A stretch of DNA of 64,000 bases from Myxococcales bacterium (lineage in GTDB: Bacteria; Myxococcota_A; Polyangia; Polyangiales; Polyangiaceae), in NCBI GenBank assembly GCA_004193285.1, contig SECP01000020.1, forward strand, positions 1-64,000. Direction: 5' to 3'. Positions 45,891 to 52,536 of the stretch are shown piece after piece; the first letter of the stretch is position 1; each line of letters opens with the position of its first letter. The position numbers were made by a program, and so were the translations under genes. The notes beneath the pieces were generated by a model. It saw only the letters and a list, made by a program, of their open reading frames with translations. It did no database searches and was not told the origin of the DNA.

Positions 45891-46559
45891 ATGAACGGAG
45901 CCGGGTTACCCAACCTCATTCAGCTTCAAGCTGGAGACCACTATTGCGGGATTTACCGTACGGATGAGGACTACCGCTCCGTGCTGGTGGACTTCGTGCG
46001 TCAGGGAGTAACCCGACACGAAAAGCTCTTCTACATCGTCAACCTCCAGAGTGCGTCTCAATTAAAGGAGACGCTCGCAACCGCGGGAGTGGACGTGGAG
46101 CAGCTGGCCGCGCGTGGTCAGCTCGTGATCATGACTGCCAAGGAGGCTTACCTGAAGGAGGGCTTGTTCGATCCGGACAAGATGGTGACGCTGCTCCGTG
46201 AGGAGACGAACAAGGCCCTAGCGGAGGGTTACACCGCGCTGGGCGTCACCGGTGACATGACTTGGGCGCTGGCTGGCGAACCCGGCTCCGAGCGGCTCGT
46301 CGAGTACGAAGCCAAGCTCAACGCGTTTTTTCCCACCAGCCGCTGCTACGGCATCTGCCAGTACGACCACCGCCGCTTCGATCCGGAAATCTTGGTGGAC
46401 GTGCTGCACACCCACCCGAAAGTCATCTGCGGCCAAGGCGCGTACGACAACGCGGACATGTACTACGTGCCGCCGGAACAGTTCTTGAAGGACGACCGGC
46501 AGAGCGCCATCCTGGACCAATGGCTTCATAACCTTGCCCGCAGACCCGCCTCCCCTTGA
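45891..46559 (+). CDS. MEDS-domain sensor protein (DcmR-like)
   Basis: 222 residues made of one MEDS domain: AGDHYCGIYRTDEDYRSVLVDFVRQGVTRHEKLFYIVN, YLKEGLFDPDKMVTLLREETNKAL, and a C-terminal CQYDHRRFDPEILVDVLHTHPKVI...NADMYYVPPEQFL. MEDS is a predicted small-molecule (methyl/halomethane-type) sensory domain related to RecA-like KaiC folds, normally fused to kinases or regulators. Here it is a separate protein directly before a hybrid kinase, which suggests a sensor subunit for that kinase. Confidence 0.9.
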   Translation: MNGAGLPNLIQLQAGDHYCGIYRTDEDYRSVLVDFVRQGVTRHEKLFYIVNLQSASQLKETLATAGVDVEQLAARGQLVIMTAKEAYLKEGLFDPDKMVTLLREETNKALAEGYTALGVTGDMTWALAGEPGSERLVEYEAKLNAFFPTSRCYGICQYDHRRFDPEILVDVLHTHPKVICGQGAYDNADMYYVPPEQFLKDDRQSAILDQWLHNLARRPASP

Positions 46560-46654: not shown

Positions 46655-48577
46655 GTGCAGGCGCTCCTGGCCGCGTCCCACGCTTACGGCAGCTACGTCG
46701 CGCCGGGAGCTCTGTGGACAGAAGGCGCGCACCTCAAAGTCAACGCGGAGACGGTCCCTGCGCCCCCTGCCGACGTTTCGGCGCTGTTCGCCCTACACCG
46801 CCGGCTAGCGATGGGCGATGGACCCGTCACCCTCGCTCGCGGCGCCGAGCACGAAGCCATCTTCCGCGGCCTGGGGCTGGAGCCCGCCACCCAATTCTTG
46901 TGTGCGGCCCCGGTGCGCGGTGGAGCCGGAAGGGTGCTGGGGGCCATCGTGCTCGCTGCCGCCTCCGCGCCGCAGCTGGAGACGAGCCTCGCCACGCTCG
47001 CGGAGGTCGCGAAGCTCGCATCCACGGCGTCGGAGGGCTCGCGCCAGCTCTTGCGAGCTCGCAAAGAGCAGGAGCGCCTGCAGCTGCTGAGCGAAGCTAG
47101 CCACGAAGCGCTGTGGGACTGGGACGTGAAGCGCGACGTGGTTTGGTGGGGCGGCGGAGTGCAGAGCTTGCTCGGCGCTGGCGAAGACACCGAGCCGCGC
47201 GGCAGTTCCTGGCGGCTGGAGCGCCTGCATCCGGAGGACGCGCGGCGTGTCGAGCACGGGCTGCGCGGCGCGCTCGGCTCCAGCGCCTCGGCGTGGAGGG
47301 AGGAGTACCGCTTCCGCCGACAAGACGGCTCCTGGTTGACCGTCGAGGAGCGCGCTTACTTCCTGCGCGACGCGGACTCGCGCGCCTACCGAGTCATCGG
47401 CTCCATTCGGGACATTAGCCAGCTCAAGGTCTCGCTCCACAGCGAGCGGCAGGCGCGCGCGGAGGCGGAGGCCGCCAATCGCGCCAAAGACGAGTTCTTG
47501 GCGATGCTGAGCCACGAGCTCAGAAACCCTCTCGCCCCCATCATCGCCGCCCTAGACCTCATGCGCCTCGGCGGTGAGACTACGGCGGAGCGCGCCCGTG
47601 CGGTGATCGATCGCCAGGCGCGTCACCTCGTGCGGCTGGTGGAAGACCTCATGGACATCTCTCGCATCACGCGCGGCAAGATCGAGCTCGTGCGCGAGCC
47701 GGTGCTGCTCCGACAGGTGGTAGCGCGCGCGGTGGAGATGACGCAGCCCCTCTTCGACGAGCGCCGTCACCGCCTCACGACCCGCATCGAGCCCGGCGAC
47801 CTCGTAGTGAACGTGGACTCCTCGCGCATGGCGCAAGTTCTCAGTAACTTGCTGAACAACGCCGCCACGTACACGCCCCCGGGCGGGCAGGTCGCGCTCA
47901 AAGCGGAGCCGAGCGCCGAGGGCGGGGTGACGATTCGCGTTGCCGACAGCGGAGCGGGGATCGACCCCGCCATGTTGTCGGAAGTCTTCGGTATGTTCGT
48001 CCAGCAGCCGCAGGCCCCGGACCGCGCGCAGGGCGGCTTGGGGTTGGGCCTGGCGATCGTGCGCAACTTGGTAGAGCTTCACGGCGGGCAGGTTTCGGCG
48101 CACAGCGCGGGTGGCGGGCGCGGCGCCGAGTTCGTGATCCAGCTGCCCCCTTACCTTGTCCCGCCTCCAGAAGGGCTAGAAGCGTCCTCGCCTCGGACGA
48201 CGACGAACGCTCCCAGACCGGCAAGGGTGCTACTCGTAGACGACAATCAGGACGCCGCCGACACGCTCGCGGAGCTGTTGGAGGATTGCGGCTACTCCTG
48301 CAGCGTCGCTTACGACGGCCCCTCCGCCCTCGAAGCGGCCCGGCGCTTTCAGCCGAGCGTGGCCATCCTAGACATCGGGCTGCCCGTCATGGATGGCTAC
48401 GAGCTGGCGCAGCGCTTGCGCTCGGAGCACTCCGCGGTGCGCCTCGTCGCGCTCACCGGCTACGGGCAGGAGAAGGACCGGCGCGCCGCGCGCGAAGCCA
48501 AGTTCGATCGACACTTGATGAAGCCCGCCGAGCCTGAGCGGCTGCGTCAGGTGCTCTCCGAGCTGCTCCTCGCGTGA
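46655..48577 (+). CDS. Hybrid sensor histidine kinase (GAF-PAS-HisKA-HATPase-REC)
   Basis: 640 residues from the first start in frame, GTG 46655, which has no ribosome site. A GAF-like part covers 1-125, a PAS about 140-258 (WDWDVKRDVVWWGGGV, HPEDARRVE), HisKA with His287 (SHELRNPL), HATPase_c about 395-500 and a receiver 520-640 (LLVDDNQDAADTL, Asp in LDIGLPVMDG, MKPAEP). Protein-like sequence upstream (ALLALAAELFRLSSPADDSALV, 46585-46650) is in another frame, so the true N-terminus may be separated by a frameshift. Linked to the MEDS gene. Confidence 0.9.
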   Translation: MQALLAASHAYGSYVAPGALWTEGAHLKVNAETVPAPPADVSALFALHRRLAMGDGPVTLARGAEHEAIFRGLGLEPATQFLCAAPVRGGAGRVLGAIVLAAASAPQLETSLATLAEVAKLASTASEGSRQLLRARKEQERLQLLSEASHEALWDWDVKRDVVWWGGGVQSLLGAGEDTEPRGSSWRLERLHPEDARRVEHGLRGALGSSASAWREEYRFRRQDGSWLTVEERAYFLRDADSRAYRVIGSIRDISQLKVSLHSERQARAEAEAANRAKDEFLAMLSHELRNPLAPIIAALDLMRLGGETTAERARAVIDRQARHLVRLVEDLMDISRITRGKIELVREPVLLRQVVARAVEMTQPLFDERRHRLTTRIEPGDLVVNVDSSRMAQVLSNLLNNAATYTPPGGQVALKAEPSAEGGVTIRVADSGAGIDPAMLSEVFGMFVQQPQAPDRAQGGLGLGLAIVRNLVELHGGQVSAHSAGGGRGAEFVIQLPPYLVPPPEGLEASSPRTTTNAPRPARVLLVDDNQDAADTLAELLEDCGYSCSVAYDGPSALEAARRFQPSVAILDIGLPVMDGYELAQRLRSEHSAVRLVALTGYGQEKDRRAAREAKFDRHLMKPAEPERLRQVLSELLLA

Positions 48578-48646
48578 GCAGATCTCAACCTTTCTGGGGC
48601 GAATCGCCTCATGAACCGACCGGCGCGCCTGGGCTATCGTCCGTCA

Positions 48647-49450
48647 ATGTCCGTACGTGAGCGAAACAACGTTCAAGTGGCTGGAAACGGTCCCGCCACC
48701 TTGGTGTTCGCGCACGGGTTCGGCTGCGATCAAAACATGTGGCGGCTCCTCGCGAAGCCGTACGCCGAGCGGTACCGAACCGTTCTTTTCGACCTGGTGG
48801 GCAGTGGCAGGTCGGACCTCGCCGCCTACGACTCGAAGAAATACGGCACCTTGCAGGGGTACGCCGACGACGTGAACCAGATCGTGGAAGAGTTCGCGTC
48901 CGGCCCGGTCGTCTTCGTGGGGCATTCCGTGAGCGCGATGATCGGTATGCTCGCGGACCTGAGCTCCAAGTCACCGTATGCGGCCCAAGTCATGATTGGC
49001 CCCTCTCCTTGCTACATCAACGATGGCGACTACGTCGGCGGCTTCAGCCGCGCGGACATCCAGTCGCTGTTGGAGACGTTGGAAGGCAACTACCTCGGCT
49101 GGTCCAGCAACATGGCGCCGACGATCATGGGCGCCCCCGATCAGCCCGCGCTGAGCGCCGAGCTCACCAACAGCTTCTGCCGCACGGACCCGGAGATCGC
49201 CAAGCAGTTTGCGCGCGTCACGTTCCTCTCCGACAACCGGCGGGACCTGCCGCGGCTTCAGACCCCCACCCTCGTCGTGCAATGTGACGACGATCCGATC
49301 GCCCCCGTCAGCGTCGGCCAGTACTTGAAAACGCACCTGCCGCGCTGCACTCTGGAGGTCATCGACAACGTCGGGCATTGCCCTCACCTGAGCTCGCCCA
49401 GCCAATGCGCCGGCGCCATCGACCGATTCTTGGCCGCGCAGGGTATGTAG
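48647..49450 (+). CDS. rsbQ: RsbQ-type alpha/beta hydrolase
   Basis: 267 residues from ATG 48647 (an ATG at 48611 would add 12). It matches RsbQ and plant KAI2/D14 in length and signature: NNVQVAGNG, FAHGFGCDQNMWR, and a triad Ser94 (VGHSVSAMIG), Asp216 (CDDDPIAP) and His244 (NVGHCPHLS). In Bacillus RsbQ is needed by the PAS-PP2C protein RsbP to signal energy stress and is thought to supply or bind a small hydrophobic ligand. Here the next gene, 7 bases on, is a PAS histidine kinase. Cytoplasmic. Confidence 0.92.
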   Translation: MSVRERNNVQVAGNGPATLVFAHGFGCDQNMWRLLAKPYAERYRTVLFDLVGSGRSDLAAYDSKKYGTLQGYADDVNQIVEEFASGPVVFVGHSVSAMIGMLADLSSKSPYAAQVMIGPSPCYINDGDYVGGFSRADIQSLLETLEGNYLGWSSNMAPTIMGAPDQPALSAELTNSFCRTDPEIAKQFARVTFLSDNRRDLPRLQTPTLVVQCDDDPIAPVSVGQYLKTHLPRCTLEVIDNVGHCPHLSSPSQCAGAIDRFLAAQGM

Positions 49451-49457
49451 GTCCCGC

Positions 49458-50582
49458 GTGAGCTCGACGCAGGCCCTCTCGGCGGAGGAGCAGGCGCTGT
49501 TCGATTCGGCAGCGTGTGGGCTCATGCGCACGCGCCCGAACGGCACCTTCTTGCGGGTGAACGCGACGTTCGCCAGCTGGGTCGGCTACGCGCCGCACGA
49601 GCTGCTCTACCAGCGGCGGTTTCAGGAGCTGCTCACCGTGGGCGGGCGCATCTTCCATCAGACCCACTGGGTGCCTCTGCTTCAGATGCAAGGCTCCATC
49701 TCCGAGGTGAAGCTCGAGCTCGTCCACCGGGACGGCACGCGCATCCCGGTCGTGCTGAACGCGATCGTTCGCAAAGACGGCGAGCCGGTGCACGACCTAG
49801 CTGCGTTCGTGGCGCGCGATCGAGACAAGTACGAGAAGGAGCTGGTCGCCTCACGCCAGCGGCTCGAGCAGCTGGTGCACGAGCTTGCGACCCTGCACGA
49901 GGAAGCCAAGGACCGCGCGCTCTTCGCGGAGCAGATGATGGGCATCGTCAGCCACGACCTTCGCAATCCCATCGGCACCATCCGCATGGGAGCGGCGCTG
50001 CTCGAGCGAACCGCGCCCGCCGCGCGCCCAGTGATTCAGCGCCTCGCGCGCGCCGCGGATCGGGCCGACCGCCTGATCACGGACTTGCTCGACTTCACCC
50101 GAGCGCGTTTGGGCGGAGGCTTGACCGCTTCTTGTCACCCTTTGGAGTTGCACGCGCTGGTGAGCGCAGCGGTCGAAGATCTCCGCCTCGCCCACCCCAC
50201 CCGTGTGCTCCAACACCGCGCGCTCGGCAGCGGCGCATGCGAGGCGGACTCGCATCGGCTCGAGCAGCTGATCGGCAACCTCGTCTCGAATGCGGTTGCC
50301 TACGGAGACCCAGCCCATCCTATCGTGGTCGAGTCGAGCATCGACCCCGACTCGTTCTCGGTCTCCGTGAACAACCGCGGAGCTCCGATCCCGAAGGAGC
50401 TTCACGAGCGACTCTTTCACCCGATGACGCGCGGGTCCCAGGGCGGCTCGGCGCGCAGCGTCGGTCTGGGCCTGTTCATCGTGCAGGAGATCGCGAAAGC
50501 GCACGGCGGCCGAGTCGACCTGAGCTCCACCGAAGAGGCGGGCACGACCTTTCGCGCGACCTTCCCGAGGACGCGCGGGTGA
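49458..50582 (+). CDS. PAS histidine kinase linked to RsbQ (RsbP-like input)
   Basis: 374 residues, GTG start. The PAS domain (about 10-125: NGTFLRVNATFASWVGY, LTVGGRIFHQTHWVPLLQMQGSI in part, VKLELVHRDGTRIPVVLNA) looks like the PAS of RsbP/RsbQ-linked proteins. A coiled linker leads to HisKA with His166 (VSHDLRNPIG) and HATPase_c about 265-370 (NLVSNAVAYGD, SVGLGLFIVQEI). The PP2C phosphatase of Bacillus RsbP is absent; a kinase takes its place. Stop codon overlaps the start of the ligase gene (GTGA). Confidence 0.92.
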   Translation: MSSTQALSAEEQALFDSAACGLMRTRPNGTFLRVNATFASWVGYAPHELLYQRRFQELLTVGGRIFHQTHWVPLLQMQGSISEVKLELVHRDGTRIPVVLNAIVRKDGEPVHDLAAFVARDRDKYEKELVASRQRLEQLVHELATLHEEAKDRALFAEQMMGIVSHDLRNPIGTIRMGAALLERTAPAARPVIQRLARAADRADRLITDLLDFTRARLGGGLTASCHPLELHALVSAAVEDLRLAHPTRVLQHRALGSGACEADSHRLEQLIGNLVSNAVAYGDPAHPIVVESSIDPDSFSVSVNNRGAPIPKELHERLFHPMTRGSQGGSARSVGLGLFIVQEIAKAHGGRVDLSSTEEAGTTFRATFPRTRG

Positions 50583-51460
50583 GCTCGCGATTCCCTGACT
50601 GGCTCACGCCGATGGCGGCGACCCTAACGCGCGAGCGCTTCGTCGGCCCCGAATGGGTGTTCGAGCGCAAGCTGGACGGCATTCGCCTGCTCGCCTTCAA
50701 GCACGGGGCGGACGTGCAATTGCTATCGCGAAACCGCTTGCCGCAAAACGCTGCGTACCCTTCCTTCGTGAGCGCGATCGCGAAGCTACCGGCCAAGAAC
50801 TTGATCTTGGACGGTGAGGCCACCGGCGTTTGGAACGCGCGGGACCCGCTCGGCTACCACGTGTTCGACGTGCTGTGGCGAGACGATCGCGACCTCACGT
50901 CCCAGCCGCTGGACGTGCGACGCGAAGAGCTGCTGAAGCTGGAGTTGAAGGCCCCGCTGCAAGTCGTGCCGCGACTGGACGCCCCGGAGCCGTGGGAGCT
51001 GGCGCGGCGTCAGGGCTGGGAGGGAGTGATCGCGAAGCGTGCCGACTCGCTCTACGAGCACCGCCGCTCCCCACATTGGCTCAAGATGAAGGTGGAGGCC
51101 TCACAAGAGCTGGTGGTTGGCGGCTTCACCGAGCCGCAAGGAAAGCGCGTGGGCCTGGGCGCGCTCTTGGTGGGCTACTTCGACGCCGCTGATTTCGTCT
51201 TCGCGGGGAAGCTCGGTACCGGGTTCGACAGCAAGCTGCTGGTCACGCTTCGGCAGCGTCTGGACGCTCTGGAGGTGGCTACCACCCCCTTCACTCGTGC
51301 GGAAGGCTTGCCCAAGAAGGGCGTGCACTGGGCCCGGCCGGAAGTCGTGGTGCAAGTCGCCTTCATGGAGTGGACGTCCCATGGCAAGCTCCGGCACCCC
51401 CGGCTACTCGGGTTGCGAGAAGACAAGTCGGCCCGTGAGGTAACTCGCGACGCGGGATAG
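50579..51460 (+). CDS. ATP-dependent DNA ligase (stand-alone LigD/LigC-like)
   Basis: 293 residues from GTG 50579. Nucleotidyltransferase motif I is FERKLDGIR with lysine 31 as the AMP-accepting residue; DGEATG (III), GWEGVIAKR (IV) and SPHWLKMKV (V) follow, then an OB-fold domain ending in VVVQVAFMEWTSHGKLRHPRLLGLREDK. It lacks the polymerase and phosphoesterase parts of full LigD, and no Ku gene is in the window. Probable role in repair of strand breaks. Coupled to the RsbQ-kinase pair by a 4-base overlap. Confidence 0.92.
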   Translation: MSSRFPDWLTPMAATLTRERFVGPEWVFERKLDGIRLLAFKHGADVQLLSRNRLPQNAAYPSFVSAIAKLPAKNLILDGEATGVWNARDPLGYHVFDVLWRDDRDLTSQPLDVRREELLKLELKAPLQVVPRLDAPEPWELARRQGWEGVIAKRADSLYEHRRSPHWLKMKVEASQELVVGGFTEPQGKRVGLGALLVGYFDAADFVFAGKLGTGFDSKLLVTLRQRLDALEVATTPFTRAEGLPKKGVHWARPEVVVQVAFMEWTSHGKLRHPRLLGLREDKSAREVTRDAG

Positions 51461-51660
51461 AAGCGCACGCGACGACACCGCTCGGCATGGCGAAAAGGTG
51501 CAGGCTCGGCGCAGTCGCGGCGCCGTTGGGCGGCGCAAAGACCAATCACGCGTGGGCATGAGGATTGCTCCATCAACCGGCGTCGCGTGTGACTGGGCGC
51601 GGGCCGAGTCGCCGCATTTGCTGCGTCAGCTACTGCGCTGACGTCCCAAGGAGCACGGCA

Positions 51661-52536
51661 ATGAACAACCGTTTTGGACGAGATCGCGACGATTACCGAA
51701 ACTATGGCCGCTCGAACGAGCAGCGTCCCCAGCGCCGCTCGGAGGAAGAGGAGCGAGCAGCGCGAGCCCAACCGTACCTACGGGACGACGACGCAGAGAG
51801 CTACAATCGCGACTTCGAGCGCGACGGCACGCGCCCGCCGGCGCCCGGAGGCGGCTACGGGCAGCAGGGAGCGTATGGTCAGCGCCCGGAGAGCCGGCCC
51901 GGCTGGTACTCGCGCGGCCACACGGGCACCTACGGCTCGGGCGGCGGCGGCTACCACGGCGGGCACGCCAGTGGCGGCTACGGCGGCAGCACCGGCACGG
52001 ACTACAGTGGCGGCAGCCACGGGGGCTACGCCGGTGACGACGTGGGCTACGGCGGCAACCAGGGTTCCAACTACGGCACCGGCAATGCAGCGAGCCGCGG
52101 CGCCTACGGCAGCGGCGTCGATCAGGGCTACCGAGGGCGCGACTTCGGCAGCCCGAGCCGCGACCTGAATGAAGAGCGGCGTGGTGGAGGTTTTGCTGGT
52201 CGAGGGCCGAAAGGCTACACGCGAACCGACGACCGCATTCGCGAAGACGTGTGCGACCGCCTGAGCGTGGACGACGACGTAGACGCGACCGAGATCGAAG
52301 TACGGGTCGAAAATGGCGAGGTCACTCTAGAGGGCACGGTCGAGACGCGCCGTATGAAGCACCAAGCCGAGAACCTGGCCGACGAGGTCTCCGGGGTGAA
52401 GGACGTTCACAATCGGCTGCGCGTCCTGAAGGGTTTCTTGAACGAGCTGAAGGACAAGGTGAGCGGTCACGAGGAAGCTCACTACGCCAACACCGGCACC
52501 AAAAACTCGCCCGTCGCCGCGAACGGCCGCGCGTAG
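51661..52536 (+). CDS. BON-domain protein with Gly/Tyr-rich disordered N-terminus
   Basis: 291 residues, ATG after AAGGAGC. Residues 1-55 are charged; 60-175 are low complexity, rich in Gly, Tyr, Ser and His (GSGGGGYHGGHASGGYGGS-like); the BON domain is at about 185-255 (DRIREDVCDRLSVDDDVDATEI, GEVTLEGTVETRRMKHQAENLADEVSGVKDVHNRLRV). The tail again has AHYANTGTK. It is a paralogue of the protein at 36649 with a longer and glycine-richer N-terminal part. No signal peptide. The low-complexity region suggests condensate formation, which is inference. Confidence 0.9.
   Translation: MNNRFGRDRDDYRNYGRSNEQRPQRRSEEEERAARAQPYLRDDDAESYNRDFERDGTRPPAPGGGYGQQGAYGQRPESRPGWYSRGHTGTYGSGGGGYHGGHASGGYGGSTGTDYSGGSHGGYAGDDVGYGGNQGSNYGTGNAASRGAYGSGVDQGYRGRDFGSPSRDLNEERRGGGFAGRGPKGYTRTDDRIREDVCDRLSVDDDVDATEIEVRVENGEVTLEGTVETRRMKHQAENLADEVSGVKDVHNRLRVLKGFLNELKDKVSGHEEAHYANTGTKNSPVAANGRA

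Follow-up and report, generated by a model that had tools for sequence, protein, structure and literature searches.

The closest described relative of the locus studied here is the RsbQ/RsbP-PAS sensing module, for which 45 adjacent gene pairs have been reported, with a phosphatase, a histidine kinase or a diguanylate cyclase as output (Nadezhdin, Brody and Price 2011, PMC3183031). According to the main text of that paper, a coiled-coil linker leads to the output domain in 36 of the 45 pairs, and functional work is limited to the Bacillus subtilis pair. Direct contact between the two proteins is supported there: B. subtilis RsbQ binds the PAS domain of RsbP, and the F55A substitution inhibits binding. 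The cue of RsbQ is termed "mysterious", and two models are offered, with RsbQ acting either as the source or as the sensor of a small ligand for the PAS domain. The same text gives the class-specific residues of the B. subtilis PAS domain as C10, L13, L48, Q53, F55, C56, Y59, E72 and P86, and the class consensus as C/L/E/P, hydrophobic, basic, aromatic and His/Tyr.

We analyzed a stretch of 64,000 nucleotides (hereafter the window) from a draft genome of the family Polyangiaceae (G000; 119 contigs, 98% complete, 7.8% contaminated), in which an RsbQ-type gene, a PAS kinase gene and a DNA ligase gene follow one another on the same strand, with these features:

48647..49450, + strand: RsbQ-family alpha/beta hydrolase, 267 aa, catalytic triad S94/D216/H244
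49458..50582, + strand: RsbP-PAS sensor histidine kinase, 374 aa
49491..49820, + strand: RsbP-class PAS domain (aa 12-121), with C20, F66, H70, P73, E83 and P97 and without the terminal DIT motif
49821..49931, + strand: linker with heptad pattern (aa 122-158), a candidate signaling coiled coil suggested by a crude heptad scan
49932..50108, + strand: HisKA phospho-acceptor domain, H166 in SHDLRNP
50247..50573, + strand: HATPase_c domain (Pfam)
50579..51460, + strand: ATP-dependent DNA ligase, 293 aa, of the LigD ligase-domain type (TIGR02779), KLDG at residues 31-34

The layout agreed with the original prediction, which had claimed these three reading frames and their starts in a tight array. 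The hydrolase and kinase genes are separated by 7 bases, the kinase starting with GTG at 49458, and the kinase stop (TGA, 50580-50582) overlaps the ligase start (GTG, 50579) by 4 bases (GTGA). An in-frame ATG also lies at 48611, upstream of the called RsbQ start at 48647, and seven of the nine aligned family homologues start at or adjacent to the first methionine of the window RsbQ. The same order of three genes is kept in a sister genome (G076), where the kinase and ligase genes again overlap by 4 bases (ATGA). Protein identity between the two genomes is 85% and dS exceeds 1, so that the dN/dS values of about 0.07 (RsbQ), 0.12 (kinase) and 0.09 (ligase) are rough; by these values all three genes are apparently under purifying selection. 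Since the sister genome keeps both gene order and overlap, with low dN/dS, the locus is no chance artefact of open reading frames. A scan of 48300-51700 returned no promoter-like sites, and two terminator-like sites against 2.4 expected. Judged from their spacing, the three genes are probably co-transcribed.

Pfam placed the hydrolase among the alpha/beta hydrolases, and its closest PDB relative among the matches listed was B. subtilis RsbQ (1wom, E 2e-84), to which 126 of 264 aligned residues (48%) are identical. In that list RsbQ was followed by the bacterial protein 3qvm and then by plant KAI2/HTL/D14 chains (E 3e-56 to 4e-42). Residues S94, D216 and H244 were invariant in ten aligned family sequences, drawn from 10 of the 17 family loci described below. 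Both the assignment of the hydrolase to the RsbQ type and the naming of Ser94 as a catalytic residue therefore held, given the 48% identity and the intact triad. The source genome encodes a second RsbQ homologue with 39% identity (contig C94:28352-29119, locus L024), which is likewise followed by a PAS histidine kinase.

In the kinase, Pfam recognized PAS, HisKA and HATPase_c domains, the PAS match (21.6 bits) falling slightly below its cut-off of 22.6. We used an RsbP-PAS profile HMM trained on 76 RsbQ-adjacent PAS domains of other loci, with the window and its sister left out. The window PAS domain scored 168.2 bits, while the second-best match in the window reached 10.5 bits; with this score to a profile that excluded it, the predicted RsbP-type identity of the domain was borne out. 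The RsbQ-adjacent PAS domain on contig C94 scored 80 bits and is a divergent member of the class. Class positions were paired with those of B. subtilis by spacing, without the B. subtilis RsbP sequence, and under the letter-to-position pairing that we infer in this way all nine window residues (C20, M23, L59, R64, F66, H67, H70, E83 and P97) fit the consensus given in the main text of PMC3183031. F66 pairs with B. subtilis F55, and the phenylalanine is kept. The PAS domain is the most N-terminal one (about aa 12-121) and is followed by AFVARDRDKYE, with the DIT motif absent, and a crude scan found a heptad pattern between PAS and HisKA.

The output domains of the kinase are HisKA and HATPase_c, and a PPM (PP2C) phosphatase domain is absent by Pfam. 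No receiver domain was found in its 374 aa and no DNA-binding domain by Pfam, nor could a response regulator be assigned to it, which we count against the explanation favored below. The sister genome has a gene for a REC-HD protein some 0.8 kb upstream of RsbQ, in the same orientation; at that position the window instead carries a hybrid kinase gene and a MEDS gene.

To place the gene pair among its relatives, we surveyed RsbQ neighbors in named genomes, using the best 80 of at least 578 RsbQ-like stretches, selected by likeness to the window RsbQ. In 78 of these best 80, from records of several phyla, a PAS domain matching that of the window (tblastn E ≤1e-3) lies directly behind RsbQ; the matching gene is missing at the other two (L092 and L123). 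One apparent RsbQ-PAS fusion protein (L147) was rejected, a stop codon separating both genes. Domains were then counted in 78 proteins, namely the window kinase and 77 others, with L092, L123 and the truncated L150 left out. Among these proteins, all from the best 80 of at least 578 apart from the window's own, HATPase_c occurred in 69, HisKA in 66, a receiver domain in 34, SpoIIE in 8 and GGDEF in 1. By these counts the kinase form is the commonest output among the surveyed loci, which were picked by RsbQ likeness. The original prediction had spoken of energy sensing "rewired" to a histidine kinase, a description that does not fit a partner with HisKA in 66 of 78 and HATPase_c in 69 of 78 RsbQ-adjacent proteins.

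Within the family Polyangiaceae, RsbQ homologues (E ≤1e-40, a cut-off that we set) were present in 14 of 108 genomes, at 17 loci in total. Nine of the 17 have an RsbP-class PAS kinase as partner, seven have a kinase without the RsbP-type PAS domain, and one (L031) has neither. Because of these seven loci with another kinase, and of L031 without a PAS neighbor, RsbQ and the RsbP-type PAS domain are not inseparable. At the seven variant loci (L033-L038 and L039; for example L036:8173-11870), RsbQ is 40-46% identical to that of the window and lies directly upstream of the kinase gene. Domain scans of two variant kinases, 965 and 982 aa long, showed HisKA-HATPase-REC-REC-Hpt hybrids in which the first 300 or so residues contain no RsbP-class PAS domain and hardly any Pfam match; the remaining five have N-termini 84-87% identical to that of L036. 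Such a partner swap is not among the output classes named in the main text of PMC3183031, and RsbQ with a hybrid phosphorelay kinase that lacks the RsbP PAS domain is possibly the more interesting variant. At a further locus (L032; G011, contig C3), an RsbP-class PAS domain is joined to an HWE-type histidine kinase, and the adjoining RsbQ match holds one TGA.

We then considered the ligase. Pfam assigned DNA_ligase_A_M and DNA_ligase_A_C domains, and the protein narrowly passed the model for the NHEJ LigD ligase domain (TIGR02779, 229.5 bits against a curated cut-off of 227.75). K31 lies within KLDG (residues 31-34), which we take to be the adenylation motif, with K31 as the adenylation lysine. 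To check linkage in the family, we covered the window and 16 further loci with 6.6 to 18 kb of sequence each, contig ends truncating three of them (L027, L028 and L030); within the stretches covered, a ligase was linked to RsbQ at 2 of 17 loci, those of the source genome and its sister. Among the named loci (best 80 of at least 578), a clear ligase lay within 6 kb of RsbQ at one, L084 (MAG Polyangiaceae bacterium C_No_T20_C_bin.74), which is the sister genome again, and at L105 a weak 29% ligase match was seen about 3 kb upstream of RsbQ on the other strand. Absence of the three-gene set from relatives had been named beforehand as counting against the original prediction, and the set was indeed absent from all loci examined except that of the sister. 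Since the link and the 4-base overlap have survived a dS above 1, the linkage is not a single chance event, and there may be selection for co-expression.

A different neighbor emerged from orthologue searches. Prokaryotic NHEJ is known to occur with Lig, Pol and PE encoded as separate genes of an operon (PMC4797286). At cut-offs that we set after a first result (ligase E ≤1e-60, polymerase E ≤1e-80), ligase orthologues were present in 6 of 108 family genomes (G000, G076, G074, G075, G098 and G037) and polymerase orthologues in 7, including all six with the ligase. In three of the six (G075, G098 and G037), a LigD primase-polymerase gene (LigD_Prim-Pol, PF21686) directly follows the ligase gene. 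The two genes lie on separate contigs in G000, G076 and G074, the polymerase orthologue of G000 being on contig C7; in G074 the ligase, the polymerase and the RsbQ-PAS kinase genes occupy three different contigs. At E ≤1e-40, RsbQ is absent from G075, one of the genomes with the ligase. Co-occurrence gave P = 4e-9 for ligase with polymerase and P = 0.028 for RsbQ with ligase, values that ignore kinship and depend on the cut-offs we set; RsbQ and ligase shared a genome in 3 of 108 cases against 0.8 expected, and in two of those three they are linked. The simplest history, by parsimony judged by eye, is that an ancestral ligase-polymerase operon was broken up in the genus and that the ligase landed behind the kinase gene in one sub-lineage.

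We also considered this ligase as the sole NHEJ ligase of the source genome, an idea rejected in view of further LigD-type loci and two Ku genes there. Frames on contigs C59 (874 aa) and C97 (853 aa) hold both ligase and polymerase matches, each with a Ku gene about 1 kb or less away. Contig C7 carries a ligase-polymerase tandem (C7:135128-137098), with one TGA within the polymerase match (C7:136154); C33 has a weaker ligase match and a polymerase match on opposite strands, and C91 another weak ligase match. These extra LigD-type loci on C7, C33, C59 and C97 were recorded as L168-L170, L176 and L177, and at C7:31979 a LigD polymerase gene stands with no ligase beside it.

Together, we consider it very likely that 48647-50582 is an RsbQ/RsbP-PAS sensing module with a histidine-kinase output, and that the ligase is the relocated half of a split LigD, a bystander to the module. 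By analogy with the B. subtilis work, the Ser-Asp-His pocket of RsbQ would bind or turn over a small molecule, and RsbQ occupancy or product would be read by the PAS domain through contact with the F-alpha helix of that N-terminal domain. This contact would alter the PAS dimer, and the change may pass through the helical linker to H166 of HisKA and from there to an unlinked response regulator. A role of the hydrolase in supplying or sensing a small ligand for the PAS domain, as the original prediction had proposed, would match both models set out in the main text of PMC3183031. The ligase would derive from a split LigD (NHEJ) operon, its gene having come to lie behind that of the kinase in an ancestor shared by the source and sister genomes; it is probably co-transcribed with the module, yet would be no partner of the sensor. 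Most likely, then, an NHEJ gene has changed its place here and is carried along on the transcript of the kinase, without being a conserved part of the module.

The main competing account makes the ligase the functional output, with RsbQ-PAS kinase signaling determining how strongly a repair ligase in its own operon is expressed, as a lineage-specific recruitment of NHEJ ligation by a stress sensor. The 4-base overlap in both genomes with this arrangement speaks for such a role, as does the apparent purifying selection on all three genes, and so does the neighborhood. The genes at 30436-63984 of the window include heme-oxygenase-like, DUF4142, fused trehalose-phosphate synthase/phosphatase and REC-HDOD genes, a stand-alone MEDS sensory domain (45891-46559), two BON proteins, YflT, a fatty acid desaturase, PPK2 and several histidine kinases, most of which we take to be of a stress type. 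With trehalose synthesis, BON, YflT, PPK2 and several kinases in the surrounding 30 kb, joint expression under stress is plausible, and this neighborhood suggests co-expression at most. Against a ligase output, the arrangement is confined to two sister genomes, the orthologous ligase stands with the LigD polymerase in three genomes and apart in one, and LigD-type loci occur elsewhere in the source genome, two lying about 1 kb or less from Ku. Moreover, Pfam detected no DNA-binding domain in the kinase, and a close same-strand gene (≤60 bases) follows the PAS protein in only 15 of 77 named loci (crude gene calls; best 80 of at least 578). We therefore regard the ligase as output as quite improbable. 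That a KAI2-like hydrolase/PAS kinase sensor captured a split-NHEJ ligase in one Polyangiaceae lineage, its signal setting ligase supply through a translationally coupled operon, is a bolder formulation that we consider unlikely. Control of strand-break repair by the pathway, as first suggested, is thus possible in two genomes and unsupported, nothing tying the kinase phosphorelay to the ligase.

It could also be that hydrolase and kinase are adjacent and act independently, and the RsbQ of L031 without a PAS neighbor, the other kinase at 7 of 17 family loci and the PAS gene missing at 2 of 80 named loci (best 80 of at least 578) would agree with this. However, RsbQ stands beside a matching PAS domain in the other 78 of that best 80, across several phyla, and B. 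subtilis RsbQ binds RsbP-PAS in an F55A-sensitive manner (PMC3183031, main text), the window equivalent, F66, being a phenylalanine. Independent action thus appears highly improbable, and a working sensor pair remains our preferred reading.

Set beside known systems, the window pair has much in common with the module of 2011 as described in the main text of PMC3183031: adjacent genes with RsbQ first, an RsbP-type PAS domain in the most N-terminal position, a histidine kinase output, the class residues and no DIT motif, and the crude heptad pattern of its linker may correspond to the coiled coil there. What sets the window apart is the ligase gene overlapping the end of the kinase gene. That main text contains no word beginning "ligase", "Myxococc", "Deltaproteobacteria" or "Sorangium", and an association of RsbQ with a ligase was absent from the titles and abstract openings listed for RsbQ in combination with kinases, cyclases, KAI2 or karrikins. 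The original view that no characterized system has this composition can accordingly be kept for the ligase alone, since RsbQ with a PAS histidine kinase is a published output class. The B. subtilis RsbQ-RsbP pair of the sigma-B energy-stress branch resembles the window in its RsbQ (48% identical) and PAS class and differs in output, a PPM phosphatase there and a HisKA kinase here; no sign of a sigma-B-like partner switch was seen at the window locus. Plant KAI2/D14 butenolide receptors share, by sequence, the alpha/beta hydrolase family with the window hydrolase, while their partners are MAX2/SMAX1 and its neighbor is a PAS kinase. The ligase resembles LigD and split NHEJ operons, passing TIGR02779 and having orthologues that adjoin LigD_Prim-Pol in three relatives, and differs from them in that the source and sister genomes place it behind a kinase gene, with the polymerase gene on another contig. 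RsbQ and PAS kinase here thus represent a recognized and widespread module, no new system, and the striking element, the ligase, is most likely a lineage-specific neighbor with relatives that form part of a split LigD operon.
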